Origin: Aphrocallistes beatrix
Taxonomy: Eukaryota > Porifera > Hexactinellida > Sceptrulophora > Aphrocallistidae
NCBI GenBank assembly: GCA_963281255.1
Contig: OY725504.1
Coordinates: forward strand, 1-64,000
Reading direction: 5' to 3'
Length of the DNA: 64,000 nt
Both the position numbers and the translations under genes were made by a program. The notes beneath the pieces were generated by a model. It worked only from the letters and a program-made list of their open reading frames with translations. It made no database searches and was not told where the DNA came from. Every line of letters starts with the position of its first letter. The first letter of the stretch is position 1. Shown one piece after another: positions 3,001 through 54,253 of this stretch.

Positions 3001-6000
3001 TCGCTCTCCTTTGGCCACATTCTTTTCTCAAAATGGCACTGTACCCCCCCACACGCATTGAAAAATGCTCCAAATCACCCGATATTTCAATGGCTTCCAA
3101 ACTGAAAATGCTCACTTTCACTTTGCTCTTATAACGTTTCTTACAGAAAATGCCTAGCTTCGCTCTCCTTTGGCCACATTCTTTTCTCAAAATGGCACTG
3201 TACCCCCCCACACGCATTGAAAAATGCTCCAAATCACCCGATATTTCAATGGCTTCCAAACTGAAAATGCTCACTTTCACTTTGCTCTTATAACGTTTCT
3301 TACAGAAAATGCCTAGCTTCGCTCTCCTTTGGCCACATTCTTTTCTCAAAATGGCACTGTACCCCCCCACACGCATTGAAAAATGCTCCAAATCACCCGA
3401 TATTTCAATGGCTTCCAAACTGAAAATGCTCACTTTCACTTTGCTCTTATAACGTTTCTTACAGAAAATGCCTAGCTTCGCTCTCCTTTGGCCACATTCT
3501 TTTCTCAAAATGGCACTGTACCCCCCCACACGCATTGAAAAATGCTCCAAATCACCCGATATTTCAATGGCTTCCAAACTGAAAATGCTCACTTTCACTT
3601 TGCTCTTATAACGTTTCTTACAGAAAATGCCTAGCTTCGCTCTCCTTTGGCCACATTCTTTTCTCAAAATGGCACTGTACCCCCCCACACGCATTGAAAA
3701 ATGCTCCAAATCACCCGATATTTCAATGGCTTCCAAACTGAAAATGCTCACTTTCACTTTGCTCTTATAACGTTTCTTACAGAAAATGCCTAGCTTCGCT
3801 CTCCTTTGGCCACATTCTTTTCTCAAAATGGCACTGTACCCCCCCACACGCATTGAAAAATGCTCCAAATCACCCGATATTTCAATGGCTTCCAAACTGA
3901 AAATGCTCACTTTCACTTTGCTCTTATAACGTTTCTTACAGAAAATGCCTAGCTTCGCTCTCCTTTGGCCACATTCTTTTCTCAAAATGGCACTGTACCC
4001 CCCCACACGCATTGAAAAATGCTCCAAATCACCCGATATTTCAATGGCTTCCAAACTGAAAATGCTCACTTTCACTTTGCTCTTATAACGTTTCTTACAG
4101 AAAATGCCTAGCTTCGCTCTCCTTTGGCCACATTCTTTTCTCAAAATGGCACTGTACCCCCCCACACGCATTGAAAAATGCTCCAAATCACCCGATATTT
4201 CAATGGCTTCCAAACTGAAAATGCTCACTTTCACTTTGCTCTTATAACGTTTCTTACAGAAAATGCCTAGCTTCGCTCTCCTTTGGCCACATTCTTTTCT
4301 CAAAATGGCACTGTACCCCCCCACACGCATTGAAAAATGCTCCAAATCACCCGATATTTCAATGGCTTCCAAACTGAAAATGCTCACTTTCACTTTGCTC
4401 TTATAACGTTTCTTACAGAAAATGCCTAGCTTCGCTCTCCTTTGGCCACATTCTTTTCTCAAAATGGCACTGTACCCCCCCACACGCATTGAAAAATGCT
4501 CCAAATCACCCGATATTTCAATGGCTTCCAAACTGAAAATGCTCACTTTCACTTTGCTCTTATAACGTTTCTTACAGAAAATGCCTAGCTTCGCTCTCCT
4601 TTGGCCACATTCTTTTCTCAAAATGGCACTGTACCCCCCCACACGCATTGAAAAATGCTCCAAATCACCCGATATTTCAATGGCTTCCAAACTGAAAATG
4701 CTCACTTTCACTTTGCTCTTATAACGTTTCTTACAGAAAATGCCTAGCTTCGCTCTCCTTTGGCCACATTCTTTTCTCAAAATGGCACTGTACCCCCCCA
4801 CACGCATTGAAAAATGCTCCAAATCACCCGATATTTCAATGGCTTCCAAACTGAAAATGCTCACTTTCACTTTGCTCTTATAACGTTTCTTACAGAAAAT
4901 GCCTAGCTTCGCTCTCCTTTGGCCACATTCTTTTCTCAAAATGGCACTGTACCCCCCCACACGCATTGAAAAATGCTCCAAATCACCCGATATTTCAATG
5001 GCTTCCAAACTGAAAATGCTCACTTTCACTTTGCTCTTATAACGTTTCTTACAGAAAATGCCTAGCTTCGCTCTCCTTTGGCCACATTCTTTTCTCAAAA
5101 TGGCACTGTACCCCCCCACACGCATTGAAAAATGCTCCAAATCACCCGATATTTCAATGGCTTCCAAACTGAAAATGCTCACTTTCACTTTGCTCTTATA
5201 ACGTTTCTTACAGAAAATGCCTAGCTTCGCTCTCCTTTGGCCACATTCTTTTCTCAAAATGGCACTGTACCCCCCCACACGCATTGAAAAATGCTCCAAA
5301 TCACCCGATATTTCAATGGCTTCCAAACTGAAAATGCTCACTTTCACTTTGCTCTTATAACGTTTCTTACAGAAAATGCCTAGCTTCGCTCTCCTTTGGC
5401 CACATTCTTTTCTCAAAATGGCACTGTACCCCCCCACACGCATTGAAAAATGCTCCAAATCACCCGATATTTCAATGGCTTCCAAACTGAAAATGCTCAC
5501 TTTCACTTTGCTCTTATAACGTTTCTTACAGAAAATGCCTAGCTTCGCTCTCCTTTGGCCACATTCTTTTCTCAAAATGGCACTGTACCCCCCCACACGC
5601 ATTGAAAAATGCTCCAAATCACCCGATATTTCAATGGCTTCCAAACTGAAAATGCTCACTTTCACTTTGCTCTTATAACGTTTCTTACAGAAAATGCCTA
5701 GCTTCGCTCTCCTTTGGCCACATTCTTTTCTCAAAATGGCACTGTACCCCCCCACACGCATTGAAAAATGCTCCAAATCACCCGATATTTCAATGGCTTC
5801 CAAACTGAAAATGCTCACTTTCACTTTGCTCTTATAACGTTTCTTACAGAAAATGCCTAGCTTCGCTCTCCTTTGGCCACATTCTTTTCTCAAAATGGCA
5901 CTGTACCCCCCCACACGCATTGAAAAATGCTCCAAATCACCCGATATTTCAATGGCTTCCAAACTGAAAATGCTCACTTTCACTTTGCTCTTATAACGTT

Positions 6001-9000
6001 TCTTACAGAAAATGCCTAGCTTCGCTCTCCTTTGGCCACATTCTTTTCTCAAAATGGCACTGTACCCCCCCACACGCATTGAAAAATGCTCCAAATCACC
6101 CGATATTTCAATGGCTTCCAAACTGAAAATGCTCACTTTCACTTTGCTCTTATAACGTTTCTTACAGAAAATGCCTAGCTTCGCTCTCCTTTGGCCACAT
6201 TCTTTTCTCAAAATGGCACTGTACCCCCCCACACGCATTGAAAAATGCTCCAAATCACCCGATATTTCAATGGCTTCCAAACTGAAAATGCTCACTTTCA
6301 CTTTGCTCTTATAACGTTTCTTACAGAAAATGCCTAGCTTCGCTCTCCTTTGGCCACATTCTTTTCTCAAAATGGCACTGTACCCCCCCACACGCATTGA
6401 AAAATGCTCCAAATCACCCGATATTTCAATGGCTTCCAAACTGAAAATGCTCACTTTCACTTTGCTCTTATAACGTTTCTTACAGAAAATGCCTAGCTTC
6501 GCTCTCCTTTGGCCACATTCTTTTCTCAAAATGGCACTGTACCCCCCCACACGCATTGAAAAATGCTCCAAATCACCCGATATTTCAATGGCTTCCAAAC
6601 TGAAAATGCTCACTTTCACTTTGCTCTTATAACGTTTCTTACAGAAAATGCCTAGCTTCGCTCTCCTTTGGCCACATTCTTTTCTCAAAATGGCACTGTA
6701 CCCCCCCACACGCATTGAAAAATGCTCCAAATCACCCGATATTTCAATGGCTTCCAAACTGAAAATGCTCACTTTCACTTTGCTCTTATAACGTTTCTTA
6801 CAGAAAATGCCTAGCTTCGCTCTCCTTTGGCCACATTCTTTTCTCAAAATGGCACTGTACCCCCCCACACGCATTGAAAAATGCTCCAAATCACCCGATA
6901 TTTCAATGGCTTCCAAACTGAAAATGCTCACTTTCACTTTGCTCTTATAACGTTTCTTACAGAAAATGCCTAGCTTCGCTCTCCTTTGGCCACATTCTTT
7001 TCTCAAAATGGCACTGTACCCCCCCACACGCATTGAAAAATGCTCCAAATCACCCGATATTTCAATGGCTTCCAAACTGAAAATGCTCACTTTCACTTTG
7101 CTCTTATAACGTTTCTTACAGAAAATGCCTAGCTTCGCTCTCCTTTGGCCACATTCTTTTCTCAAAATGGCACTGTACCCCCCCACACGCATTGAAAAAT
7201 GCTCCAAATCACCCGATATTTCAATGGCTTCCAAACTGAAAATGCTCACTTTCACTTTGCTCTTATAACGTTTCTTACAGAAAATGCCTAGCTTCGCTCT
7301 CCTTTGGCCACATTCTTTTCTCAAAATGGCACTGTACCCCCCCACACGCATTGAAAAATGCTCCAAATCACCCGATATTTCAATGGCTTCCAAACTGAAA
7401 ATGCTCACTTTCACTTTGCTCTTATAACGTTTCTTACAGAAAATGCCTAGCTTCGCTCTCCTTTGGCCACATTCTTTTCTCAAAATGGCACTGTACCCCC
7501 CCACACGCATTGAAAAATGCTCCAAATCACCCGATATTTCAATGGCTTCCAAACTGAAAATGCTCACTTTCACTTTGCTCTTATAACGTTTCTTACAGAA
7601 AATGCCTAGCTTCGCTCTCCTTTGGCCACATTCTTTTCTCAAAATGGCACTGTACCCCCCCACACGCATTGAAAAATGCTCCAAATCACCCGATATTTCA
7701 ATGGCTTCCAAACTGAAAATGCTCACTTTCACTTTGCTCTTATAACGTTTCTTACAGAAAATGCCTAGCTTCGCTCTCCTTTGGCCACATTCTTTTCTCA
7801 AAATGGCACTGTACCCCCCCACACGCATTGAAAAATGCTCCAAATCACCCGATATTTCAATGGCTTCCAAACTGAAAATGCTCACTTTCACTTTGCTCTT
7901 ATAACGTTTCTTACAGAAAATGCCTAGCTTCGCTCTCCTTTGGCCACATTCTTTTCTCAAAATGGCACTGTACCCCCCCACACGCATTGAAAAATGCTCC
8001 AAATCACCCGATATTTCAATGGCTTCCAAACTGAAAATGCTCACTTTCACTTTGCTCTTATAACGTTTCTTACAGAAAATGCCTAGCTTCGCTCTCCTTT
8101 GGCCACATTCTTTTCTCAAAATGGCACTGTACCCCCCCACACGCATTGAAAAATGCTCCAAATCACCCGATATTTCAATGGCTTCCAAACTGAAAATGCT
8201 CACTTTCACTTTGCTCTTATAACGTTTCTTACAGAAAATGCCTAGCTTCGCTCTCCTTTGGCCACATTCTTTTCTCAAAATGGCACTGTACCCCCCCACA
8301 CGCATTGAAAAATGCTCCAAATCACCCGATATTTCAATGGCTTCCAAACTGAAAATGCTCACTTTCACTTTGCTCTTATAACGTTTCTTACAGAAAATGC
8401 CTAGCTTCGCTCTCCTTTGGCCACATTCTTTTCTCAAAATGGCACTGTACCCCCCCACACGCATTGAAAAATGCTCCAAATCACCCGATATTTCAATGGC
8501 TTCCAAACTGAAAATGCTCACTTTCACTTTGCTCTTATAACGTTTCTTACAGAAAATGCCTAGCTTCGCTCTCCTTTGGCCACATTCTTTTCTCAAAATG
8601 GCACTGTACCCCCCCACACGCATTGAAAAATGCTCCAAATCACCCGATATTTCAATGGCTTCCAAACTGAAAATGCTCACTTTCACTTTGCTCTTATAAC
8701 GTTTCTTACAGAAAATGCCTAGCTTCGCTCTCCTTTGGCCACATTCTTTTCTCAAAATGGCACTGTACCCCCCCACACGCATTGAAAAATGCTCCAAATC
8801 ACCCGATATTTCAATGGCTTCCAAACTGAAAATGCTCACTTTCACTTTGCTCTTATAACGTTTCTTACAGAAAATGCCTAGCTTCGCTCTCCTTTGGCCA
8901 CATTCTTTTCTCAAAATGGCACTGTACCCCCCCACACGCATTGAAAAATGCTCCAAATCACCCGATATTTCAATGGCTTCCAAACTGAAAATGCTCACTT

Positions 9001-10491
9001 TCACTTTGCTCTTATAACGTTTCTTACAGAAAATGCCTAGCTTCGCTCTCCTTTGGCCACATTCTTTTCTCAAAATGGCACTGTACCCCCCCACACGCAT
9101 TGAAAAATGCTCCAAATCACCCGATATTTCAATGGCTTCCAAACTGAAAATGCTCACTTTCACTTTGCTCTTATAACGTTTCTTACAGAAAATGCCTAGC
9201 TTCGCTCTCCTTTGGCCACATTCTTTTCTCAAAATGGCACTGTACCCCCCCACACGCATTGAAAAATGCTCCAAATCACCCGATATTTCAATGGCTTCCA
9301 AACTGAAAATGCTCACTTTCACTTTGCTCTTATAACGTTTCTTACAGAAAATGCCTAGCTTCGCTCTCCTTTGGCCACATTCTTTTCTCAAAATGGCACT
9401 GTACCCCCCCACACGCATTGAAAAATGCTCCAAATCACCCGATATTTCAATGGCTTCCAAACTGAAAATGCTCACTTTCACTTTGCTCTTATAACGTTTC
9501 TTACAGAAAATGCCTAGCTTCGCTCTCCTTTGGCCACATTCTTTTCTCAAAATGGCACTGTACCCCCCCACACGCATTGAAAAATGCTCCAAATCACCCG
9601 ATATTTCAATGGCTTCCAAACTGAAAATGCTCACTTTCACTTTGCTCTTATAACGTTTCTTACAGAAAATGCCTAGCTTCGCTCTCCTTTGGCCACATTC
9701 TTTTCTCAAAATGGCACTGTACCCCCCCACACGCATTGAAAAATGCTCCAAATCACCCGATATTTCAATGGCTTCCAAACTGAAAATGCTCACTTTCACT
9801 TTGCTCTTATAACGTTTCTTACAGAAAATGCCTAGCTTCGCTCTCCTTTGGCCACATTCTTTTCTCAAAATGGCACTGTACCCCCCCACACGCATTGAAA
9901 AATGCTCCAAATCACCCGATATTTCAATGGCTTCCAAACTGAAAATGCTCACTTTCACTTTGCTCTTATAACGTTTCTTACAGAAAATGCCTAGCTTCGC
10001 TCTCCTTTGGCCACATTCTTTTCTCAAAATGGCACTGTACCCCCCCACACGCATTGAAAAATGCTCCAAATCACCCGATATTTCAATGGCTTCCAAACTG
10101 AAAATGCTCACTTTCACTTTGCTCTTATAACGTTTCTTACAGAAAATGCCTAGCTTCGCTCTCCTTTGGCCACATTCTTTTCTCAAAATGGCACTGTACC
10201 CCCCCACACGCATTGAAAAATGCTCCAAATCACCCGATATTTCAATGGCTTCCAAACTGAAAATGCTCACTTTCACTTTGCTCTTATAACGTTTCTTACA
10301 GAAAATGCCTAGCTTCGCTCTCCTTTGGCCACATTCTTTTCTCAAAATGGCACTGTACCCCCCCACACGCATTGAAAAATGCTCCAAATCACCCGATATT
10401 TCAATGGCTTCCAAACTGAAAATGCTCACTTTCACTTTGCTCTTATAACGTTTCTTACAGAAAATGCCTAGCTTCGCTCTCCTTTGGCCAC
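1..10491. repeat. 159-bp satellite array, 66 tandem copies
   Basis: Head-to-tail copies start at 1, 159, 317, 476, 634, 793 and then every 159 bases to 10333; the last ends at 10491 and sequence diverges after it. Units 1, 2 and 4 are 158 bp (one lost A in unit 1, a 6-C instead of 7-C run in units 2 and 4). From 793 on I see no difference between copies by eye. The array reaches the left edge of the window, so its true length is unknown. Because 159 is divisible by three and one minus-strand frame lacks stops, a 3316-codon open frame spans 485-10435; I treat that as a by-product of the repeat, not a gene. Centromeric or other heterochromatic satellite is the natural reading but is inference. 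Confidence 0.98.
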
Positions 10492-10496
10492 ATTCC

Positions 10497-11085
10497 TTAT
10501 TGAATTACAATAACAAGCGAGCTTTGCTTCATTTCGCTGCGCGGCTTGCGGACACTTTGTATCCGCCGGAGGCTCCCTTCGGGCGCCTTTAGAAATGAGT
10601 GGGGTGCGAATTACCACTGGCTTCACTACCATCAGAGTTGCACGCGGGGCGGGCTGGCTCGCACGCCCGCAACATGCTCGCACAATACATACTACTCAAC
10701 TACTGTCACGTAAGTCAAAGACAACATAACTCACCATCTCGTCTTGACCATCCGGGCGCAGATGATTTAAATCAAAATCCTTTATAATACAACTGAACCC
10801 ATGTTTCACTTCTCTTTCTTGGTTTACTTTGCTATTTTTTCTAACTAATTTTTCGTTGTTTTCTTTATTTTTCTCCACATTTAAGACGATTGCAAATGCT
10901 ATTTAGTATTGCTTATGTTGCCAGGTTAGATCTCATCGAATATGCATCGAAATTTTGTAAATTTTCAAGTGATATTGATTATAACAGTAAGACAGAAGTA
11001 TTTAGAGCTGTTATCTATCTTATAATTCATTAATTTGGGGCCAGCCGCGCAGCGCAAGCAAGCGAAGCGCACTTGTTAGAATTTA
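10497..11085. mobile_element. Foldback / MITE-like element with GC-rich inverted ends
   Basis: The left end (about 10510-10600) and the right end (about 11040-11085) are imperfect inverted repeats, each holding an AACAAG-type motif and a CGCTGCGCGGCT-type core. The left arm also contains a GC-rich segment with AGGCTCCCTTCGGGCG that recurs in reverse at 31500-31575. The interior (10747-10957) contains a stretch repeated directly at 11525-11600 and 11798-11873. It looks like a non-autonomous DNA element; no transposase is seen and I could not define a target-site duplication. Confidence 0.55.
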
Positions 11086-14090: not shown

Positions 14091-14799
14091 TACACGGACC
14101 GCGTCCCTACACTAATGGAGGAGCTGCACAGACCGCGTTACTACACTAATGGAGGAGCTACACAGACCGCGTTACTACACTGATGGAGGAGATACACAGA
14201 CCGCGTTACTACACTGATGGAGGAGATACACGGACCGCGTTACTACACTGATGGAGGAGATACACAGACCGCGTTACTACACTGATGGAGGAGATACACA
14301 GACCGCGTTACTACACTGATGGAGGAGATACACGGACCGCGTTACTACACTGATGGAGGAGATACACAGACCGCGTTACTACACTGATGGAGGAGATACA
14401 CGGACCGCGTTACTACACTGATGGAGGAGATACACGGACCGCGTTACTATACTGATGGAGGAGATACACGGACCGCGTTACTACACTGATGGAGGAGATA
14501 CACGGACCGCGTTACTACACTGATGGAGGAGATACACGGACCGCGTCCCTACACTGATGGAGGAGATACACGGACCGCGTTACTACACTGATGGAGGAGA
14601 TACACGGACCGCGTTACTATACTGATGGAGGAGATACACGGACCGCGTTACTACACTGATGGAGGAGATACACGGACCGCGTTACTACACTGATGGAGGA
14701 GCTGCACAGACCGCGTTACTACACTGATGGAGGAGATACACGGACCGCGTTACTACACTGATGGAGGAGATACACGGACCGCGTTACTATGCTGATGTA
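14091..14799. repeat. 34-bp minisatellite, about 21 copies
   Basis: The unit contains GACCGCGTTACTACACTGAT and GGAGGAGATACAC and repeats every 34 bases with few variants (ACAGACC versus ACGGACC, GTTACTAC versus GTCCCTAC). Copies abut with no spacers, which excludes a CRISPR-like arrangement. Confidence 0.95.
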
Positions 14800-35822: not shown

Positions 35823-35838
35823 GCTCCAGAGGTGTGAA

Positions 35839-36618
35839 ATGTCGTACATGCTGCAGCACCTGAACAACTGCTGGCAGGTGGACCAGGCCATCATGAGCGA
35901 GGAGGAGAGGGTGGTGCTGGTGCGCTGGGGACACGACTGGGACCCGACCTGCATGAAGATGGACGAGGTGCTCTACAAGATCGCCGAGAAAGTCAAGAAC
36001 TTTGCCGTCATCTACGTCGTGGACATTACAGAGGTGAGTTGTGGTAACCATGGATACTCAATGCAGCGATGTATGCGGAAACTCCTGGCTGGAATAAGAG
36101 ATACCTACGATGCTACCATCCCGGTCCATTGGCATGCATACTTGAGCAGTTATATTCCTTTATACAGTCAGGGTCGCTTATTATGAACTAACCTGCTGGT
36201 CCCAATTTCATTTTTTAGATAGGATTTCTATTGAATCAAGTTCGCTTAATATGAAGTATCTCTATTATGAACAGATTTTTTGGTCCCTTGGTGGTTCATG
36301 ACTCTTATCCGATCCCCAGACCATCCTAGCATTCCTATCGCTCCTATCCGTATCCATGGTAGCTATATAATGTGGTCACCACAGGTGAACGACTTCAACA
36401 AGATGTACGAGCTCTACGACCCGTGCACCGTAATGTTCTTCTTCCGGAACAAACACATCATGATCGACCTGGGCACGGGCAACAACAACAAGATCAACTG
36501 GGCGCTGGAGGACGAGCAGGAGATGGTCGACATCATCGAGACTGTGTACCGCGGCGCGCGCAAAGGCCGCGGACTGGTTGTGTCGCCTAAGGACTATTCG
36601 ACCAAGTACAGATACTAG
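35839..36618 (+). CDS. TXNL4A: Thioredoxin-like U5 snRNP protein (Dim1/DIB1)
   Basis: Exons 35839-36033 and 36385-36618 encode 142 residues, the exact length of human TXNL4A. Conservation is very high (GHDWDPTCMKMDEVLY, FAVIYVVDITE, ELYDPCTVMFFFRNKH, DYSTKYRY). It is a thioredoxin-fold core component of the U5 and U4/U6.U5 snRNP, needed for spliceosome activation. Its intron carries a partial transposon relic from 36165. Confidence 0.98.
36165..36284. mobile_element. Partial pogo-like MITE in TXNL4A intron
   Basis: TA followed by CAGTCAGGGTCGCTTATTAT starts a pogo-like terminus. Variants of the same words (GTTCGCTTAATATGAA; CTATTATGAACAGA) recur inside. No matching right end is visible, so it is truncated or rearranged. 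Confidence 0.5.
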
Positions 36619-38690: not shown

Positions 38691-39458
38691 TTACTGCGTC
38701 TTCTGCAGGAACGAGCTCTTGTTTCTGTGAATCTTGTCGTACTGCTCCTTGTAGCGGTTCCGCTCCTTCCGGAGGTTCTCTACGTCCTGCTGCAGCAGCT
38801 TTATCTCGCGCTCCAGGCTCTCCTTCTGCTGCCGCATCGTGTTCTTCTTCTTGTTCTTCTTCTCGCGGCAGACCTGCGCGTAGCCGCGGTTCTTGAACTG
38901 TCTGCGGAGTCGTTTCAGTTCTTTCTCGCTCAGTTTGTTCACGCCGATATCTTTCAGCTTCTTGTTCAGCTCAGGAATCCCCAGGTGCGTCAACTCGTCC
39001 CGGTTGATCCCCTCAGGCAACTTGAGGTCGATTTCCTGTCCCTCATCGTCCGTCAGTTGCCCGTCTCTGTACTTGTCCTCTCTGTCTCCCCGCGAGTAGG
39101 GACTGCTGTCGGAGTAGGAGAGTGTGCTGCGGTTCTCGTCAGCACAGCCCGCCTCGTCTTGGTTGTAGAACATTTCCTGGCCCTGCCATGCGATGCCCTC
39201 GAATTCGGAGAAATTCTGTCCCTCGGGCCCCGCCACCATGTGGTCCCGGTTGGGGGACCATTGTCCCGGCGGCGGCGGCAGAGCCATCGGGAGAGGCAGC
39301 GTGTAGTCCGGCAGCTGCATGTGCGAAAAATCGATCGTGCCTTGTGCCATGAGGTTAGGGTACTGCATCGCGTTGAATGTGAAATCCCCTGTGGGCATGT
39401 AGGGGAGGATCGGTGGGTATTCGAAGTCGTTGCTGGGGGGAAGTTCGTTGTAACTCAT
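38691..39458 (-). CDS. Maf-like bZIP transcription factor 1, intronless
   Basis: 255 residues. Pro- and aromatic-rich N-terminus, acidic middle, then a Maf-type extended homology region (IPELNKKLKD), basic region RRQFKNRGYAQVCREKK (NRGYAxxCR hallmark, 190-198) and a leucine-zipper-like coiled coil. Maf proteins bind TGC-containing palindromic sites as dimers. This copy keeps the Gly-Tyr pair specific to Mafs. Its N-terminus is unlike those of the three paralogues downstream, so it is the outgroup of the cluster. Confidence 0.88.
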   Translation of the reverse strand: MSYNELPPSNDFEYPPILPYMPTGDFTFNAMQYPNLMAQGTIDFSHMQLPDYTLPLPMALPPPPGQWSPNRDHMVAGPEGQNFSEFEGIAWQGQEMFYNQDEAGCADENRSTLSYSDSSPYSRGDREDKYRDGQLTDDEGQEIDLKLPEGINRDELTHLGIPELNKKLKDIGVNKLSEKELKRLRRQFKNRGYAQVCREKKNKKKNTMRQQKESLEREIKLLQQDVENLRKERNRYKEQYDKIHRNKSSFLQKTQ

Positions 39459-41297: not shown

Positions 41298-44200
41298 ATG
41301 AGCTCGCATCGGCCCATTTCCAAGCGGCACATCTCTTTCTACAACAAAGAGTTCGCCAGCGTTTGCTGCGGGATAAACCTAAAATCTCGCTGCGGCAACG
41401 GCGACTGTGAATCCGTCCGCACTCTAGGCGGGCTCGTGATCGTCAAGTGTCCGGACCTGGACGCCTGCGTCTTCCAGGACGTCGTCTACAACCTGCTCTG
41501 TCCCGCCTGCGGCGCGGCGCTCAACCCGCAGCAGTTCAGCGGCGTCGTGTTCGTGCGCTGCGAGGCGAAGATCTCCGTGGGAGGCAAGGAGGACGTGCTG
41601 CGGGCCAGCCAGGAGGAGACCGTGCTGTGGGAGATGCAGTACCTGGGCCCCGAGGTCGCGGTCAGCATCCTGGAGAGGGAGGACGAGGCTGCGCCCCCCG
41701 TCGACGTTTCTAAGAACTATCTCTTCCCGACGAACGGCGTCAACCTGGTGGGGACTTGCCCCCGCAGCGATTGCTTCGCCTTCAAGAACAACCAAGGCCT
41801 GGTCGTGGTGCGCGTGGGGCTGATCGAGTCTGCGGTCTTCCAGGAGTTGGTCAAATTCCGCAACTGCTCCTGCTGCAACCGCGAGCTCCGGCCGGACTCC
41901 TTCAAGGCCATCACGTTCCTCGGCTGCCGCGCGGAGGTGGAGATCCACGGGAGAGTCGAGACGTTCGACGCCACCGCCACGCCCAAACCCTTCAAGCTCG
42001 AGACCGCCGGCCCGCGGGCGATCATTCGCGTCAATCGAGATTCGGCGGCCCGCTCTCCCCAGTCCAGCCCCGATAGGGCGCGCAGTCTCGCCGGCCTCTC
42101 CCCCACCGCCGTGTCGGAGGGATTCGAGAAGTTCGTCCGGAACGTTTCCTCGGGAATGCGGAACGCGTCCGAGGAGATGGAGCCGGGGATCAACTTCCTG
42201 GCGGACTGCCCGAGCGCGGACTGCGACGCAGTGGTGATTCCCGCCGGACACATCCTCAGCTGCAAGTACAAGGAGGCCATCCGCGGGAAGATCTGCCCCT
42301 CCTGTCGCCAGGCGCTGCCGCCCTCCTGCTTCAAGGGCGTGGGCTTCCTGCAGTGCACGGCCAGCGTGCAGAGCGGCGGGAAGGAGTCCGTCTACCGCGC
42401 CGGGCGCATCGTCGAGATCTGCAAGATCCATCCGGAGGGCCACGAGGTGGAGATCACCGTGCGGGAGCGGGACATGGGCGGCGAGACCACCGGGACGCTG
42501 TCCGAGGGGAAGGGGCCGAGTTCGGTCCGGGTCTGCTCCGGCCTGAACGTCGAGGCGATGTGCATAAACCCCAAATGCAACGCCTCCATCGTGGTCATCC
42601 CGTGCCCGCGCGTCGAGGAGTGCCACTACTTCGACCTGATCTCCTCGCTCCAGTGCCCCTCCTGTTCCTGCAGCATCCCGCCCGCCCTCTTCATCGGGAT
42701 CTCCCTCGTGCAGTGCAAGGCGGAGGTGACCATCGGGTCCAAGTACCAGTCCGTGAAGGCCGTGGGGGACGAGACCAAGGATTTCCGGCTCGAGTTGGGC
42801 GGTCCTCCGGTCTTCATCAAAATCCTGAGCCGGGACCTGGGCCCGAAGACCGGGCAGCTGTCGGGGGAAGCCGGCATGGAGTACACGAGTGCTTGCACAG
42901 GCCTCAACCTCGTAGCCATCTGCCACAACTCCTCGTGCCTCGCCTACAGAGAGAACGACGGACAAGTCAACGTCAAAGTCCCGGACAAGACCGACTGTCT
43001 CTTGAGCGAGGCTGCGGCCAACCTCCGCTGTCCCTCCTGCGACCGGGGCATGGACTCCTCGCAGGTGAAGGCCATCACGTTCGTGCGCTGCAGCGGAGAG
43101 GTCTTCATCGGGAGTCAATGCGAGAAGTTCACTGCGGCCGGCGACAAACTGAGGCATTTCCCCGTTTCCAGCAACAGTCCGGAAGTGAGGATCAACATCC
43201 TCTCCAAGTTCCAGGTGAAGAAGGATCAGCCGTCCAGCGAGAGGAAGTACACCAAGGTGTGCGACGGAGTGAACTTCGTCGCGTTCTGTCAGAACCCGGC
43301 CTGTCTGTCCGTGCAGGAGTACGGCGGATACGTCAACGTCCGGCGGGACCAGCAGTTCGTCCGGAGGGGCGGGTTTCTCCCGAACCGCTGCAACTACAGC
43401 CAAGAAATCCAAAATCTGAAGTGTCCGTCCTGTGAAGCCCGCTTGGACCCTAAGATCGCCCGCGGAGTCGCGCTTGTGAGGTGTAAAGGAACGATCGAGA
43501 TCGCCGGCAAAAGCCAGAACTTCGAAGCAACAATGAACGATTTTAAAGAATTCAGCTTAGACCATTCAGATAGTCGCACCTTTGTGGAGTTCCAAGTGAT
43601 TGAGATCCTTCCTCACGGGCCCGGTCTCAACGTCATCGTCAAATGTCCGAACAAGGCCTGTCCCTGCCAGAACCATCCTCTCCTGAAGGAAGTGGCAGTC
43701 ATTAAGTTCGGAATCGTCCAAGGCTGCAAAGTGAACGAAGCCATCCGATCCGAGAACTGTCCTCTCTGCAAGCACAACATTCCAACTGACAACTTCGTTG
43801 CTGTCCTCTTCAACGAGTGCACGGCCCTTGTCAAGAGAGATGGGCAGGAGACCACCTACATGGTCGGGGCCAGGGTCCAGACGCTCCCGTTCGAATTCAG
43901 TGAGAATATCGAAGTCGACATCCTCCCAGTCATCGCGAGGGAAGTGTCGGCCAAGCAGATAGTGGAGAATCCGTTCGGCCGACTGGTGAACGGCATGAAC
44001 GTCCAGGCCGTCTGCTCCCACCAAGGCTGCGAGGCGAAGCGGTCTTACGGGGGGAGAATCAACATCAGCTGTCCGGAAATGAAGAAGTACACCCTCAGGG
44101 AGTTGTTCCCGTCCCTGAACTGTCCCTCCTGCCGGGCCCCTCTGTCCCAGATGATCCTCACCTGTCTCAGCTTCGTGCAGTGCAAGGCGCTGCTGCAGGC

Positions 44201-45089
44201 CCCCGGCAGGAAGTACCTGCTGGAGGCCGGCAAGGACGAAGCGATCGACTTCGAGAGCGCCTCCCTCACGCCCGACTTCTCCATCCAGGTCCTGAGTCTG
44301 GACCAGGAGTTCCCGGACTCGTTCGGGAAGGGAGGGATCAGCAAGGGCAGCGAGTTCTCCCACGCCTCCGTCTGCCACGGCCTCAACTTCCGGGCTTCCT
44401 GCTCCAACTCCGCCTGCGTCGCCAACCAGAGGAGCCAGTACGTGAACATCATGGCCGGACACCTCCTGGACTTCGACTACAGAGCCGCCGCTCAGTCCCT
44501 ATCCTGTCCCGTCTGCCAGGCCCGCATCCTCCCGAACGAAGTCAGCGGCGTCACGATGCTCTGCTGCACCGGCGAGGTTCGGTTCGGGGACCGCGTGGAG
44601 AAGTTCGATTACTCGGGGGAGAGAATCTCGAGGATCAACATCCCCAACGACGGGTCCAGGGTCTGGATCAAGGTGGAGCACCGGACGTACGACATCATCA
44701 CGCACCCCGTGCTCCCGTACATGCACCGTCCCTTCCAAGCGCTGTGCAACGGTCTGAACTTCCGCTGCTACTGCAAGAACCCTCTGTGCGGGACTTTCAG
44801 GGAGAGGGAGGGGCTGGTGATGGTGCAGAGGGACCCCGCGTTCGCTCAGGCGCACGGCTACCCTCTCAACGTGTGCAGCTACCGACAGGAGATCTCCAGC
44901 CTCAAGTGTCCCGACTGCGCCGCCCGGCTACGGCCCTACTTCGTGTGGGGCGTCCTGTTCACCTGCTGCAGCGGGAGCATCACGAGGGACGGGTCTCCGC
45001 CCGAAAAGTTCAGCACCCTCCTCGGAAAGGTGGTCCTCTACGCCCTCGACAGAGACGACATATCTGTCCGCATTAACTTCTCCTTGTAG
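41298..45089 (+). CDS. Ten-module Cys-rich, zinc-ribbon-like protein, intronless
   Basis: A single 1263-residue frame from ATG 41298. It is built of ten modules, each about 100-125 residues. Each starts with a G(L/I/V/M)N(F/L/V) word near 41361, 41736, 42183, 42540, 42900, 43266, 43622, 43992, 44380 and 44752. Each module then has C-x4-C (as in CINPKC, CKNPLC), about 40 residues, C-x2-C (CPSC in most), then a (V/F)xxC strand and a beta-rich tail. The four invariant Cys suggest a zinc ribbon. The pattern recalls Cys modules repeated in some rotifer, fungal and protist proteins, from memory and unproven. No signal peptide, membrane helix or enzyme motif is seen. Modules 6 and 10 share a longer insert with an NxCxYxQEI word, hinting at a duplicated block. 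Function unknown. Confidence 0.85.
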   Translation: MSSHRPISKRHISFYNKEFASVCCGINLKSRCGNGDCESVRTLGGLVIVKCPDLDACVFQDVVYNLLCPACGAALNPQQFSGVVFVRCEAKISVGGKEDVLRASQEETVLWEMQYLGPEVAVSILEREDEAAPPVDVSKNYLFPTNGVNLVGTCPRSDCFAFKNNQGLVVVRVGLIESAVFQELVKFRNCSCCNRELRPDSFKAITFLGCRAEVEIHGRVETFDATATPKPFKLETAGPRAIIRVNRDSAARSPQSSPDRARSLAGLSPTAVSEGFEKFVRNVSSGMRNASEEMEPGINFLADCPSADCDAVVIPAGHILSCKYKEAIRGKICPSCRQALPPSCFKGVGFLQCTASVQSGGKESVYRAGRIVEICKIHPEGHEVEITVRERDMGGETTGTLSEGKGPSSVRVCSGLNVEAMCINPKCNASIVVIPCPRVEECHYFDLISSLQCPSCSCSIPPALFIGISLVQCKAEVTIGSKYQSVKAVGDETKDFRLELGGPPVFIKILSRDLGPKTGQLSGEAGMEYTSACTGLNLVAICHNSSCLAYRENDGQVNVKVPDKTDCLLSEAAANLRCPSCDRGMDSSQVKAITFVRCSGEVFIGSQCEKFTAAGDKLRHFPVSSNSPEVRINILSKFQVKKDQPSSERKYTKVCDGVNFVAFCQNPACLSVQEYGGYVNVRRDQQFVRRGGFLPNRCNYSQEIQNLKCPSCEARLDPKIARGVALVRCKGTIEIAGKSQNFEATMNDFKEFSLDHSDSRTFVEFQVIEILPHGPGLNVIVKCPNKACPCQNHPLLKEVAVIKFGIVQGCKVNEAIRSENCPLCKHNIPTDNFVAVLFNECTALVKRDGQETTYMVGARVQTLPFEFSENIEVDILPVIAREVSAKQIVENPFGRLVNGMNVQAVCSHQGCEAKRSYGGRINISCPEMKKYTLRELFPSLNCPSCRAPLSQMILTCLSFVQCKALLQAPGRKYLLEAGKDEAIDFESASLTPDFSIQVLSLDQEFPDSFGKGGISKGSEFSHASVCHGLNFRASCSNSACVANQRSQYVNIMAGHLLDFDYRAAAQSLSCPVCQARILPNEVSGVTMLCCTGEVRFGDRVEKFDYSGERISRINIPNDGSRVWIKVEHRTYDIITHPVLPYMHRPFQALCNGLNFRCYCKNPLCGTFREREGLVMVQRDPAFAQAHGYPLNVCSYRQEISSLKCPDCAARLRPYFVWGVLFTCCSGSITRDGSPPEKFSTLLGKVVLYALDRDDISVRINFSL

Positions 45090-46033: not shown

Positions 46034-47092
46034 CTAAGCCTGCTTCCTCTGCTGCATCTGCTCGTAGTTGCCCTTGTACTTGTCTCGCTCGATCCTCAGC
46101 CGTTCCACGTCCCCTTTCAGTTCGTCGATTTCGCACTGGAGTAGCTGCTTCTGCTCCTTCATCGTGTTCTTCCGGTCGTCCTTCTTCTTGCGGCAGGTGT
46201 GTGCGTAGCCACGGTTCTTGTACTGGCGCCGAATCCTCTTCACGTGATTCTGGTCGTCCCGACTCAGGCCGAGGTTTTTCAGTTTCTTGTTCAGGTCAGG
46301 AATCTTCAGATTGGTCAGATCCCCTTCCGTCACCCCCTCGGGCAGCTGCTCCGCCAGGTCTTTCATGTCGAGTCCTAAGTCCACCGTTTCGTCCTCGCTG
46401 TCATCGTCGTCTGGCTGCATCTGCGGTTTCAAGACGGAAGGAGGGGGACTGTACTCGGGGTCGATTCCTGGCCCGGGGTAAGGGGACGGGATGGAGTTGA
46501 GGTCTGTGTGTGGGTACATGCCCCCGGGGCCAGATAGTTGGTGCTGAGGGAAGTAGCCAGGCTGTTGCATCTGAGGATGGGCAGGGTATTGCTGGTAGAA
46601 GTTGTCGATGGCTGGTGGCTGGTGTAAATCACTTAGAAAGTCCCACATGCCCAACTGCTGGTCATCCGAGGAGAGTTGGGCAGGTGGCGCAGCGGGGAGA
46701 GGATTCGGACGGAGGTTCCGGGGAGAGGCAGACGCGGGGGCTGAGCTCACCGCCGGGGCAGAGGGGGGAGTGTTGCTCCAAGGATAGGACCCGTTGGAAG
46801 GCGGATAATCGGCACTGGAGGGAGGCGAGAAGAGAGAAGAGCTCGGGAGTTGTCCCGCCATCTGTCCGGGTGTGAAGGGGGCGTGATGAGGAGGAGGAGG
46901 AGGAGGCGCCTGGTGTTGCTGGTAAGAGAATGGGTCGTTGAAGACGTTGAATGGAGCTGGTGGCAGTTGTTGGTTGGCATCCATGAGGTGTGGGTAGCTT
47001 GAGTAATCAAATGTGAAAGCACTGCTGTTCGCAGGGTAGGATTCCCCTGGCATCCCCACGAATTGGTTCATTCCGAACTCGAAGTTGTTCAT
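46034..47092 (-). CDS. Maf-like bZIP transcription factor 2, intronless
   Basis: 352 residues. A Pro/Ser/Gln-rich N-terminal half (MNNFEFGMNQF start, PPPPPP tract) is shared with factors 3 and 4. The C-terminal half has an acidic stretch, the extended homology region IPDLNKKLKNLGLSRDD, basic region RRQYKNRGYAHTCRKKK and a coiled coil. NRGYA is intact, so normal Maf-type DNA contact is expected. Confidence 0.88.
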   Translation of the reverse strand: MNNFEFGMNQFVGMPGESYPANSSAFTFDYSSYPHLMDANQQLPPAPFNVFNDPFSYQQHQAPPPPPPHHAPFTPGQMAGQLPSSSLFSPPSSADYPPSNGSYPWSNTPPSAPAVSSAPASASPRNLRPNPLPAAPPAQLSSDDQQLGMWDFLSDLHQPPAIDNFYQQYPAHPQMQQPGYFPQHQLSGPGGMYPHTDLNSIPSPYPGPGIDPEYSPPPSVLKPQMQPDDDDSEDETVDLGLDMKDLAEQLPEGVTEGDLTNLKIPDLNKKLKNLGLSRDDQNHVKRIRRQYKNRGYAHTCRKKKDDRKNTMKEQKQLLQCEIDELKGDVERLRIERDKYKGNYEQMQQRKQA

Positions 47093-50162: not shown

Positions 50163-51260
50163 TTATCGGCTCTGGTCCTTTCCTACTTGCATCATTTCAT
50201 AGCTGTGTTTGTATTGGTCCCGCTGGATCCTCAGTCGGTCCACGTCCGTTTTCAGGTCATTTATTTCTCCCTCCAGCATTTCTTTCTGACTCTTCATTGT
50301 CGTCTTTTTCTCCTCTTTGTTCTTGCGGCAATTTTTCGCATAGACGCGGTTCTTTTGCTTTCTGCGCATTTGCTTCACTTCCATTTGTTGCTCCTGCGTC
50401 ATTCCCTGGTCCCGCAACACCTTGTTCAGATCTCGGATGTTTATTTCCGCGAGTTCGTCCGCGTTTGAGATATCATCCAGGGCAGGGTCCAGCTTTGTAT
50501 CGAGGTCTTCATCATCGAAACAATCTGGGAAGGTCTCGGATTTGCCGGTGATTGACTCGTCGTAAGACATGGGGGGCGGCTTTATGAGGGAGGAAGGGGG
50601 GCTGTACTCGTTGGGATCGTGTCCTGATCCGGGGTAAGGGGACGGGATGGAGTCAGTGTGTGGGTACATACTCCCGGGGCCAGCCAGATGGTGCTGAGGG
50701 TAGTAGCCAGGCTGTTGCATCTGAGGGTATGGCTGGTAGAAATTGTCGGTGGGTGCTGGCTGGAACTCGTCCAGCATTTCCAGCAGTTCCTGCTCCAACT
50801 GCTGGTCTTCAGCGCTGGCAGTGGCTGGCTGGTGCTGTGAGGGGAGTTGGGCAGGTGGCGCAGCGGGGAGAGGATTCGGACGGAGGTTCCGGGGAGAGGC
50901 AGACGCGGGGGCTGAGCTCACCGCCGGGGCAGAGGGGGGAGTGTTGCTCCAAGGATAGGACCCGTTGGAAGGCGGATAATCGGCACTGGAGGGAGGCGAG
51001 AAGAGAGAAGAGCCCGGGAGTTGTCCCGCCATCTGTCCCGATGTGAAGGGGGCGTGAGGAGGAGGAGGAGGAGGCGCCTGGTGTTGCTGGTAGGAGAATG
51101 GGTCGTTGAAGACGTTGAATGGAGCTGGTGGCAGTTGTTGGTTGGCATCCATGAGGTGTGGGTAGCTTGAGTAATCAAATGTGAAAGCACTGTTGTTAGC
51201 AGAGTAGGATTCCCCTGGCATCCCCGCGAATTGGTTCATTCCGAACTCGAAGTTGTTCAT
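50163..51260 (-). CDS. Maf-like bZIP transcription factor 3, intronless, altered DNA-contact motif
   Basis: 365 residues. About the first 230 residues are nearly identical to factor 4. The C-terminal half diverges strongly: INIRDLNKVLRDQGM replaces the usual extended homology sequence, and the basic region reads RRKQKNRVYAKNCRKNKEEKK. Gly of the Maf NRGYA hallmark is Val, while Asn, Ala, Cys and Arg of the bZIP core remain. A KETLEGEI-like coiled coil follows. DNA specificity may differ from true Mafs. Confidence 0.86.
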   Translation of the reverse strand: MNNFEFGMNQFAGMPGESYSANNSAFTFDYSSYPHLMDANQQLPPAPFNVFNDPFSYQQHQAPPPPPPHAPFTSGQMAGQLPGSSLFSPPSSADYPPSNGSYPWSNTPPSAPAVSSAPASASPRNLRPNPLPAAPPAQLPSQHQPATASAEDQQLEQELLEMLDEFQPAPTDNFYQPYPQMQQPGYYPQHHLAGPGSMYPHTDSIPSPYPGSGHDPNEYSPPSSLIKPPPMSYDESITGKSETFPDCFDDEDLDTKLDPALDDISNADELAEINIRDLNKVLRDQGMTQEQQMEVKQMRRKQKNRVYAKNCRKNKEEKKTTMKSQKEMLEGEINDLKTDVDRLRIQRDQYKHSYEMMQVGKDQSR

Positions 51261-51321
51261 TTCTAGTTGTTAAATCTTTTCTGTTGATTGTTGGTGATAT
51301 ATGTATTCTGCTTTTGAGATG

Positions 51322-52516: not shown

Positions 52517-53104
52517 GCATATCAATAATTTCATCGGAGATGATGGGGTGTAGTCTTTCATTCTTTTCCGGAGGTCTTTCCTGTTAGAGATCAGAGTTGG
52601 ATTAGACTCTGTGGACTCTTACGAATCTGGTGCTAGGAGAGTTCATGATGCATTCAGCACTTGATACACAAGGTCGTATGACGGTGCATTGCAGAGCCAA
52701 ATAAGGCTGTAAGCAGCCTTTGCTGTTACTTGCACTACCTGATGCATAATCACATGCACGGCTAATTACACGCACACTTCCTTCTTTCAACCTTGCGCAT
52801 AGCTTCACCTTTGCACCTGACATTCCACGACCAGGAGATGACCTCTCTAACTTAGCGGTCGAGTGCTGAATAATTTACAGCTCGCAGCCGACTGGCTTAT
52901 GCTATGCTTTTGTCTGTGGTGGCGCTGTCTTGTTGCATTCCAGGTGCAGTGGGCGAGTGGTCATTTTAGGAACATAATTCCTGTTTTTACGTTTCAGGTC
53001 TTTTCAATAAACATCGATTGCGCAAACACTGCCACTTTCATTTTAGGTTAGATGCAATGTGACCTCACTCTTGTAGTCACTACACACCATCCACCAAGTT
53101 TGTA
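51330..53104. other. AT-rich intergenic region with a large AT hairpin
   Basis: No gene recognised; the dinucleotide palindrome at 52425-52530 is described separately. Confidence 0.55.
52425..52530. repeat. (TA)n repeat inside a long palindrome
   Basis: GAAATTATTGATATGCGTAT at the left is mirrored by ATACGCATATCAATAATTTC at the right, enclosing about 65 bases of alternating TA with one ACTACG interruption. The whole segment can fold as one cruciform of about 100 bases. Confidence 0.93.
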
Positions 53105-53112
53105 TATAAATA
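53105..53112 (+). promoter_or_regulatory. TATAAATA box of Maf-like gene 4
   Basis: TATAAATA 49 bases before the start codon, identical to the octamer before factors 1-3. Confidence 0.72.
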
Positions 53113-53161
53113 TGCAGAAGTCAAAGCGAAAGCAACATTATTCAATTCTACACCAATCAAC

Positions 53162-54253
53162 ATGAACAACAACTTCGACTTCGGAATGAACCAATTCGCG
53201 GGGATGTCAGGGGAATCCTACTCTGCGAACAGCAGTGCTTTCACATTTGATTACTCAAGCTACCCACACCTCATGGATGCCAACCAACAACTGCCACCAG
53301 CTCCATTCAACGTCTTCAACGACCCATTCTCCTACCAGCAACACCAGGCGCCTCCTCCTCCTCCTCCTCACGCCCCCTTCACTTCCGGACAGATGGCGGG
53401 ACAACTCCCGAGCTCTTCTCTCTTCTCGCCTCCCTCCAGTGCCGATTATCCGCCTTCCAACGGGTCCTATCCTTGGAGCAACACTCCCCCCTCTGCCCCG
53501 GCGGTGAGCTCAGCCCCCGCGTCTGCCTCTCCCCGGAACCTCCGTCCGAATCCTCTCCCCGCTGCGCCACCTGCCCAACTCCCCTCACAGCACCAGCCAG
53601 CCACTGCCAGCGTTGAAGACCAGCAGTTGGAGCAGGAACTGCTGGAAATGCTGGACGAGTTCCAGCCAGCACCCACCGACAATTTCTACCAGCCATACCC
53701 TCAGATGCAACAGCCTGGCTACTACCCTCAGCACCATCTGGCTGGCCCCGGGAGTATGTACCCACACACTGACTCCATCCCGTCCCCTTACCCCGGATCA
53801 GGGAATGACTCCAACGAGTACAGCCCCCCTCCTTCCTTCATAAAGCCGCCCCCCATGTCCTTCGACGACTCGGAATTCCCTGACCTTGACCAATCAGAGC
53901 TGGGGGACCTGGACCTGTCTGACCTAGAGCTGCCAGACGGTGTCACTCCCGGGGACCTCGCCGTCCTGAAGATCCCGGACCTGAACAAGAAGCTGCGGGA
54001 CTTGGGGCTGAGTCGCGACGAGCAGAATGTTATCAAGAAAATCCGCAGACAGCACAAGAACCGACACTACGCCCACACGTGCCGCCTGAAGAAGGTGGAG
54101 AAGAAGAGCACCATGAAGTCCCAGAAGCAAATTCTGGAGTCGGAGATAAACGATCTGAAAACAGACGTTGATAAACTCCGGAGACAGCGGGACGAGTACA
54201 AGAAGAATTACGAAATGATGCAGCAACGGCCGAGAGACCAGCAGTTCTCTTGA
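53162..54253 (+). CDS. Maf-like bZIP transcription factor 4, intronless, altered DNA-contact motif
   Basis: 363 residues. The N-terminal half is almost the same as factor 3. The C-terminal half resembles factor 2: PDGVTPGDLAVLKIPDLNKK, LRDLGLSRDEQN, basic region RRQHKNRHYAHTCRLKK and a coiled coil. The hallmark Gly of NRGYA is His. It is the only Maf-like gene of the cluster on +, lying head-to-head with factor 3 across 1.9 kb. Confidence 0.87.
   Translation: MNNNFDFGMNQFAGMSGESYSANSSAFTFDYSSYPHLMDANQQLPPAPFNVFNDPFSYQQHQAPPPPPPHAPFTSGQMAGQLPSSSLFSPPSSADYPPSNGSYPWSNTPPSAPAVSSAPASASPRNLRPNPLPAAPPAQLPSQHQPATASVEDQQLEQELLEMLDEFQPAPTDNFYQPYPQMQQPGYYPQHHLAGPGSMYPHTDSIPSPYPGSGNDSNEYSPPPSFIKPPPMSFDDSEFPDLDQSELGDLDLSDLELPDGVTPGDLAVLKIPDLNKKLRDLGLSRDEQNVIKKIRRQHKNRHYAHTCRLKKVEKKSTMKSQKQILESEINDLKTDVDKLRRQRDEYKKNYEMMQQRPRDQQFS

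Follow-up and report, generated by a model that had tools for sequence, protein, structure and literature searches.

The ten-module gene and its surroundings

Within the window, the whole 64,000-nucleotide stretch of Aphrocallistes beatrix DNA that was analysed, a gene of animal type encodes a protein of ten tandem modules. The open-reading frame runs on the forward strand from its first ATG at 41298 to a TAG codon ending at 45089 and specifies 1263 amino acids, 77 of them cysteines, with no internal stop. A sequence-only reading had described a giant intronless protein; the uninterrupted 1263-residue coding frame bears this out, and "intronless" applies to the coding frame only, as an intron in the 5′-UTR is possible. 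No signal peptide was seen in the protein on inspection by eye. The features are listed below.

41298 to 45089, + strand, whole open-reading frame, ten tandem modules, 1263 aa
41367 to 41675, + strand, module 1
41733 to 42038, + strand, module 2
42183 to 42467, + strand, module 3
42537 to 42830, + strand, module 4 (AlphaFold2 model, pLDDT 94.6)
42897 to 43205, + strand, module 5
43263 to 43598, + strand, module 6 (with a ~9-aa insert common to modules 6 and 10)
43620 to 43934, + strand, module 7
43989 to 44297, + strand, module 8
44376 to 44681, + strand, module 9
44748 to 45086, + strand, module 10 (protein end)

The GC3 of the frame is 86%, similar to that of six neighbouring ORFs of the window (60–87%), and the flanks have a GC content of ~40%. 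The gene lies, as had been read from the sequence, amid Maf-like bZIP ORFs; the one at 38.7 kb is on one flank, those at 46.0, 50.2, and 53.1 kb are on the opposite flank, and all are likewise uninterrupted frames. This looks like a matter of neighbourhood only, with nothing tying the cluster to the ten-module gene. A split frame is found at 35824–36183, where a match to DIM1 reaches no further than position 74 of the 133-position profile and resumes downstream in another frame. An Rfam search of positions 10500–64000 produced nothing that reached the gathering score.

Composition of the modules

The ten modules, each of about 100 residues, are in register, with a G-h-N motif (h, hydrophobic) at residues 25, 147, 297, 415, 535, 657, 776, 899, 1028, and 1152. 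All ten carry, in order, G-h-N, a first cysteine knuckle (C-x4-C), a second knuckle (C-x2-C), and a later fifth cysteine, as described earlier; a regular expression for the full motif matched the protein ten times and was matched in none of 1000 residue shuffles. The same description had counted four cysteine pairs per module, where there are actually two pairs and the fifth cysteine. Seven residues are invariant in 10/10 modules (G2, N4, C9, C14, C40, C43, and C60 in the numbering of module 4), and the modules are otherwise diverged, with pairwise identities of 14–36% (median 26%) and long branches in the tree. These observations support a zinc-ribbon-like fold under selection and agree with the view that this is no fresh tandem duplication.

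The 77 cysteines in 1263 residues might also suggest a metal store resembling metallothionein, rich in cysteine and lacking a specific partner. This is very improbable, given that just five of the 6–8 cysteines in each module are invariant, that the non-cysteine residues G2 and N4 are conserved, and that the module is modelled as a fold with high pLDDT (see below).

The module among named families

Searches of Pfam, NCBIfam, and PDB sequences gave no name for the module, and the best match of a PDB profile search had an E-value of 0.25. The earlier remark that no named animal family with this build was known stands for Pfam, NCBIfam, and PDB, the last by sequence and by fold, and neither the window modules nor the module in the relatives could be matched confidently to any characterised family in the libraries searched. 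The sole Pfam match above cutoff was to Trm112p (PF03966; 29.1 bits against a cutoff of 22), a protein that likewise has a C-P-x-C knuckle. It was rejected: the match covers 26 profile positions (6–31) spread over 136 residues (938–1073) that straddle modules 8 and 9, so that most of the 40-position domain is not aligned in one piece. No accepted Pfam match adds a further domain to the frame, in line with the sequence-only reading, and ubiquitin, U-box, and PARP domains were absent from the Pfam matches of the window ORF. PfamB_2311 was also set aside, since it lies on the other side of PARP from the module (PMC2964712). Among the papers listed in literature searches, no title or abstract opening named the module.

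Relatives in bacteria

The first relatives came from a DNA pattern that described a motif in the module's first half; C-x2-C and the fifth cysteine were absent from this pattern. The scan of genome contigs gave 20 loci, 17 of which were judged to be chance. A profile search built from the ten modules, as proposed earlier, did recover chlamydial frames (E = 1.3e-7 and 4.1e-7), and the uniqueness that had been implied for the module did not hold: Chlamydiota have a homologous domain, and so does a single genome from the order to which a Hymenobacteraceae MAG belongs. In the reverse direction, a profile made from chlamydial modules only scored 46.9 bits against the window ORF, compared to maxima of 9.4 bits in 500 shuffles with cysteines fixed and 7.6 bits in 500 full shuffles. 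None of the 500 cysteine-fixed shuffles reached the real score, indicating homology beyond cysteine spacing. Alignment of the window and chlamydial profiles with hhalign gave an E-value of 3.1e-10 over 76 columns. Judged by these sequence comparisons, the window module is homologous to the bacterial domain; the alignments run from the start of the module to between two thirds and four fifths of its length, and the last strand is aligned in multiple alignments only. Single window modules matched the chlamydial profile weakly, half of the ten with E-values between 0.001 and 0.011 and the other five with E-values between 2.2 and 170; the strength of the ORF score comes from ten modules in register.

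In an alignment of 29 selected modules, the glycine and the four cysteines of the pairs are present in 29/29 rows, the fifth cysteine in 28/29, and the asparagine in 27/29. Four of the 29 rows have a C-x2-C first knuckle, a spacing that a metal knuckle may have. We use the working name Ub-linked zinc-ribbon module family for this group, which has no Pfam or NCBIfam name.

The domain was present in 7/232 Chlamydiota genomes and in 1/291 genomes of the Bacteroidota order of the Hymenobacteraceae MAG (L039), most searched genomes being without it; it was found in 0/274 genomes of the class of a Methylococcales MAG and in 0/4 further genomes. In the relatives, it lies C-terminal to ubiquitin-type domains, U-box, PARP, or ankyrin-patatin. 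Carriers include one with two ubiquitin domains (PF00240, 1.3e-45), others with Ub-like domains (7.8e-12, 1.5e-11, and 2e-7), one with a U-box (2.1e-10), three with PARP (L025, L050, and L053; matches at 2.8e-9, 3.9e-7, and 4.2e-7), and one with ankyrin and patatin. The chlamydial proteins among them (L025, L033, L046, L048, L049, L050, L052, and L053) end in a module with G-h-N, first knuckle, C-x2-C, and fifth cysteine (absent in one row) in the same order as in the window, and differ in having one copy each, in several cases joined to another domain, whereas the window protein consists solely of its ten copies. Carriers with no ubiquitin, U-box, or PARP domain also exist (L048, L052, and L055), and the absence of such a domain from the window ORF is thus compatible with family membership. 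One of these, frame L055 of genome G734, resembles the window array in that a single frame carries two modules that are clear and a third that is weak (E = 0.008), separated by spacers and with no credible Pfam domain; it differs in having three modules at most, long spacers, and a C-x2-C first knuckle in two of them. The single copies occur in some bacteria of intracellular type. The domain is probably widespread next to ubiquitin in protists, rotifers, and fungi as well.

Several other matches were dismissed as chance. These were tblastn matches to E. coli plasmids (32 records at E = 6, with one and the same part of the query aligned in all 20 listed), matches to phages (4 records at E = 3), and matches to genome G811 (two places, L059 and L060, E = 6.6e-5), the last because the L059 frame lacks G-h-N and the first knuckle. 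Scans of a viral contig collection gave 0 matches in one and 12 and 23 stretches in the others, none confirmed, and two more scans gave 12 and 8 loci, all judged chance, with a best profile E-value of 0.088.

Origin of the array

In a tree with 12 chlamydial modules, the ten window modules form one clade (support 100/99), separated from the chlamydial modules by a long stem, and look as if amplified in this lineage. The gene may possibly have been acquired horizontally from a protist, symbiont, or giant virus and domesticated, with amplification after capture and a present role that may be defensive or may be degenerate. The frame is uninterrupted where at least one neighbour (35824–36183) is split, and the relatives belong to bacteria and viruses that inhabit eukaryotes or seem to. 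However, the Maf-like neighbours are uninterrupted as well, the GC3 resembles that of the surrounding ORFs, and the long stem and single clade leave no donor that can be named. We consider this origin less likely than not; it is compatible with the scaffold function proposed below.

Predicted structure

AlphaFold2 predicted a single window module (module 4) as an all-beta fold with one short helix (pLDDT 94.6, pTM 0.82), and a chlamydial module at moderate confidence only (pLDDT 71). For both models, the same four viral proteins occupied ranks 1–4 in the fold search (prob 1.00, TM 0.61–0.72), with a single match of the window module model passing E = 0.001. The likeness of the two folds runs through these shared top matches rather than a direct comparison of the models, one of them at pLDDT 71. 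Two of the four viral proteins are giant-virus ubiquitin proteins by annotation, namely the Barrevirus "Ring and ubiquitin domain protein" (A0A3G4ZQ93) and the Pandoravirus salinus "Ubiquitin" (S4W648); they differ from the window protein in their ubiquitin/RING context, which is known from annotation alone. A Foldseek search of PDB with the module 4 model had a best match of E = 0.088 and TM 0.42 among the best 50 of 849, and these matches were set aside.

Tandem zinc-binding modules commonly bind nucleic acids, and ten ribbons in a row contacting DNA or RNA could read a long site. The pI of the whole protein (8.0) and the net charges of modules 2 (+5) and 10 (+4) would suit such an array. 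Against it, net charge ranges from −5 to +5 across the modules, the invariant columns contain no lysine or arginine, the relatives are tied to ubiquitin, U-box, PARP, and patatin rather than to nucleic-acid enzymes, and no significant PDB fold match was found among the best 50 of 849. We consider nucleic-acid binding unlikely.

Proposed function

We lean, by a little over even chances, towards a catalytically empty, multivalent zinc-ribbon scaffold derived from a ubiquitin-linked adaptor domain. The protein would probably be intracellular, each of its beta modules being a diverged member of a family joined elsewhere to ubiquitin or Ub-like domains, U-box, PARP-type ADP-ribosyltransferases, or ankyrin-patatin. 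Zinc binding is probable; one zinc would be held between the C-x4-C and C-x2-C knuckles, which would thereby pin the beta-sheets. Each module may offer a binding surface, and ten in a row would bind a repeated or clustered ligand with avidity.

That the domain is found beside ubiquitin, ubiquitin-ligase, or ADP-ribosylating enzymes, and resembles giant-virus folds, suggests that the array probably serves as a binding scaffold with many hands; since ubiquitin, U-box, and PARP domains are all missing from the window protein itself, the functional link rests on the relatives. As to ligand and pathway, we infer that the ligand most likely belongs to ubiquitin-linked signalling (ubiquitin chains, E2/E3 partners, or ADP-ribosylated or ubiquitylated targets). 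The protein may take part in defence against intracellular microbes, which is the least certain step.

A bolder and rather speculative reading is that tenfold amplification in the animal lineage made a polyvalent reader of ubiquitin or ADP-ribose marks, which would make the module a binding domain of a new class and the protein a candidate scaffold of cell-autonomous immunity. The domain would then be common to eukaryotes, giant viruses, and intracellular bacteria at the ubiquitin/PARP interface.

Neither the Pfam nor the NCBIfam copy searched contains a model of the domain, yet it recurs at the C-termini of ubiquitin, U-box, and PARP proteins in some bacteria and is similar to portions of viral proteins with a ubiquitin annotation. 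With ten copies and no other part, the window protein is well suited to finding out what the domain binds. Should the domain read ubiquitin or ADP-ribose marks, it would be a binding domain that microbes have repeatedly taken up.

An intact reading frame of ten diverged modules

The open reading frame at 41298-45089 (+) proved to be real, running from its first ATG for 1263 amino acids with no internal stops. G+C makes up 86% of its third codon positions against 39-40% of the flanks, and third-position values of 60-87% were found in six other open reading frames in the window (four Maf-like ones, a sulfatase and a tetraspanin piece), so the frame is coding and fits this genome. The Maf-like bZIP genes around it are uninterrupted frames:

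38691-39458 (-), Maf-like bZIP
46034-47092 (-), Maf-like bZIP
50166-51269 (-), Maf-like bZIP
53063-54250 (+), Maf-like bZIP

Identity is 66-81% among the last three; the first reaches only 42-48% against them over 100-122 residues. A G-alpha piece in the window is nearest to the G12/13 class, an animal-type class of G-alpha, at 1.2e-43; among the best 60 of 263 matches, other classes begin at 1.6e-32, save for an engineered miniGq at 2.8e-38. Together with the four Maf bZIP frames and a tetraspanin, this piece points to a host that resembles an animal or something closely related to animals. A satellite with a 159-bp unit (66 copies at 99%) occupies positions 1-10495. Because 159 = 3 x 53, one minus-strand frame across it remains open for 3339 codons (488-10504); this frame is probably not a gene. 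At 14091-14797 lies a tandem array with a 34-bp unit, in 20.8 copies at 95%.

The modules are in register, at residues 25, 147, 297, 415, 535, 657, 776, 899, 1028 and 1152, and the full motif matched the protein ten times and none of 1000 residue shuffles. Seven residues are kept in all ten modules (G2, N4, C9, C14, C40, C43 and C60 in module 4 numbering), and pairwise identity between modules is 14-36%, with a median of 26%. The sequence-only reading had counted four Cys pairs per module; the five invariant Cys instead make two pairs and a fifth Cys. By eye, two further Cys, one just before G-hydrophobic-N (G-h-N) and one mid-module, occur together in modules 1, 4, 5, 6 and 10, singly in modules 3, 7 and 9, and not at all in modules 2 and 8. 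Elsewhere in the window, the best match was only E 1.5 with module profiles A1 and A2 (A2 being a 14-row alignment) and only E 0.35 with the chlamydial module profile A3.

A module without a family name

Searches of Pfam, NCBIfam, PHROGs and the PDB gave no credible identity, in keeping with the earlier statement that no named animal family of this build is known. The sole above-cutoff Pfam match of the protein, Trm112p, was rejected, as its alignment was split. NCBIfam gave no match, PHROGs a single match at E 0.21, and the PDB, searched by sequence, no match to the protein and a best E of 0.25 to the module profile. The module was named by Pfam in none of 15 carrier proteins and by NCBIfam in none of six. 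Among the papers listed in literature searches, none carries a name for it in its title or abstract opening. A history of the PARP family (PMC2964712) shows a U-box PARP and PARPs with E2 domains, and its PfamB_2311 domain, lying on the wrong side of PARP, is no fit for the module; the words zinc and PARP are absent from the main text of a paper on chlamydial ubiquitination (PMC4209131).

Sequence relatives in bacteria

A genome collection was scanned with a DNA pattern derived from the motif G-h-N..G.C.N..C.A, giving 20 loci, three of which were singled out by a profile of the ten window modules.

Pattern loci matching the window-module profile
L025, Parachlamydiaceae MAG: E 1.3e-7
L033, Neptunochlamydia MAG: E 4.1e-7
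L030, Parachlamydiaceae MAG SSA5: E 0.005, weak and interrupted

The remaining 17, with a best profile E of 0.04, were judged to be chance. L025 and L033 carry C-x2-C and the fifth Cys, although the pattern spanned no more than the module's first half. In the reverse test, a profile of four chlamydial modules gave the window frame 46.9 bits, compared to at most 7.6 in 500 shuffles, at most 9.4 in 500 shuffles with Cys fixed, and 0.6 for the reversed protein. Single window modules scored weakly (five at E 0.001-0.011 and five at E 2.2-170, with a 61-bit composition bias already taken off). Compared profile to profile, window and chlamydial modules align over 76 columns at E 3.1e-10, with a probability of 96.8. 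The C-terminal fifth lies outside these local alignments.

Seven of 232 genomes of Chlamydiota, the phylum of L025, matched A2 at E <= 1e-4, three of them already found by the pattern. The order to which a Hymenobacteraceae MAG belongs gave one match in 291 genomes; we would guess that this genome, G734, is an amoeba symbiont. The one match among 385 genomes in the class of Amylibacter kogurei was judged to be chance, and none was found among 274 genomes of the class that includes a Methylococcales MAG. For such empty samples, matches in other groups are the only positive control. The domain is absent from most genomes searched.

Ten window, 12 chlamydial and seven G734 modules were selected by hand for a 29-module alignment, which omits fragmentary matches at L043, L045 and L046:666-908 and the match at L059. 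The G and the four paired Cys are conserved in all 29 rows, the fifth Cys in 28 and the N in 27; the first knuckle reads C-x2-C in four rows from G734, and in one chlamydial row it is C-x6-C. By eye, an A-P-x-W-R-like stretch, probably an additional strand of the domain, lies a few residues upstream of G-h-N in L049, L051, L056 and L058, and at that place several modules of the window carry a stretch that differs, is shorter and contains Cys.

Predicted structure

With the remaining nine modules serving as the alignment, AlphaFold2 produced a model of module 4 (pLDDT 94.6, pTM 0.82) that has strands at 2-8, 18-23, 28-30, 52-66, 69-84 and 92-97 and one short helix. Its best Foldseek match in the PDB was E 0.088. 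Against the viral library, its four best matches all have probability 1.00, and the fifth is at E 0.066.

Leading viral fold matches of module 4
A0A3G4ZQ93, 'Ring and ubiquitin domain protein', Barrevirus: E 2.2e-4, TM 0.71
A0A6M6DLR9, viral: E 2.1e-3
S4W648, 'Ubiquitin', Pandoravirus salinus: E 3.7e-3, TM 0.72
A0A886NGQ9, viral: E 9.8e-3

Since no ubiquitin structure is among the best 50 of the model's 849 PDB matches, the modelled similarity probably involves a part of the viral proteins outside the ubiquitin fold. A chlamydial module model, with a pLDDT of only 71, returned the identical four proteins at ranks 1-4 (E 2.0e-4 to 1.2e-3; next E 1.1).

History of the array

A branch with 100/99 support, whose stem measures 2.6 changes per column, sets the ten window modules apart from the rest in a 22-module tree, and modules 6 and 10, which have an insert in common, pair at 94/91. 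Read most simply, the tree points to a single ancestral module that multiplied long ago in this lineage. With 12 chlamydial modules as the sole outsiders and only two of 19 inner branches well supported (10 are open), eukaryotic relatives could still break this group.

Partner domains and a possible mode of action

In bacteria the module is joined to a variety of front ends. At L025:911-6986, three adjacent frames with different front ends each carry it at the C-terminus, like a shared tag.

Domain composition of carriers
L025: ankyrin and patatin, module; Ub-like (7.8e-12), module; PARP catalytic (4.2e-7), module
L049:853-2516, neighbouring genes: two ubiquitin domains (1.3e-45) and module; U-box (2.1e-10) and module
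L050: PARP (2.8e-9) and module
L053: PARP (3.9e-7) and module; small frame, module without Pfam domain
L046: Ub-like (1.5e-11) and module
L048, L052: module without Pfam domain
L056 (G734): Ub-like (2e-7) and module
L058 (G734): Ub-like (4.5e-4, under Pfam cutoff) and module
L055 (G734): 538-aa frame, two clear modules with a weak third between (E 0.0079)

In L033 / L042, the module is preceded in the same frame by a ubiquitin-like C-terminus (LVLRLRGG), and a stop codon separates the two. By eye, the proteins at L048:1276-2400 and L052:1270-2235 end in a hydrophobic stretch resembling a membrane anchor.

Each module would present a beta surface and probably binds one zinc between its two predicted knuckles. 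No signal peptide is visible by eye in the window protein, and reduced Cys would be compatible with the cell interior. The net charge of a single module lies between -5 and +5, which does not favor nucleic-acid binding. Single modules elsewhere join ubiquitin, E3-type or ADP-ribosylation domains. That ten stand here with no enzyme suggests avidity, and the protein may serve as a scaffold, sponge or decoy whose ligand and pathway we infer.
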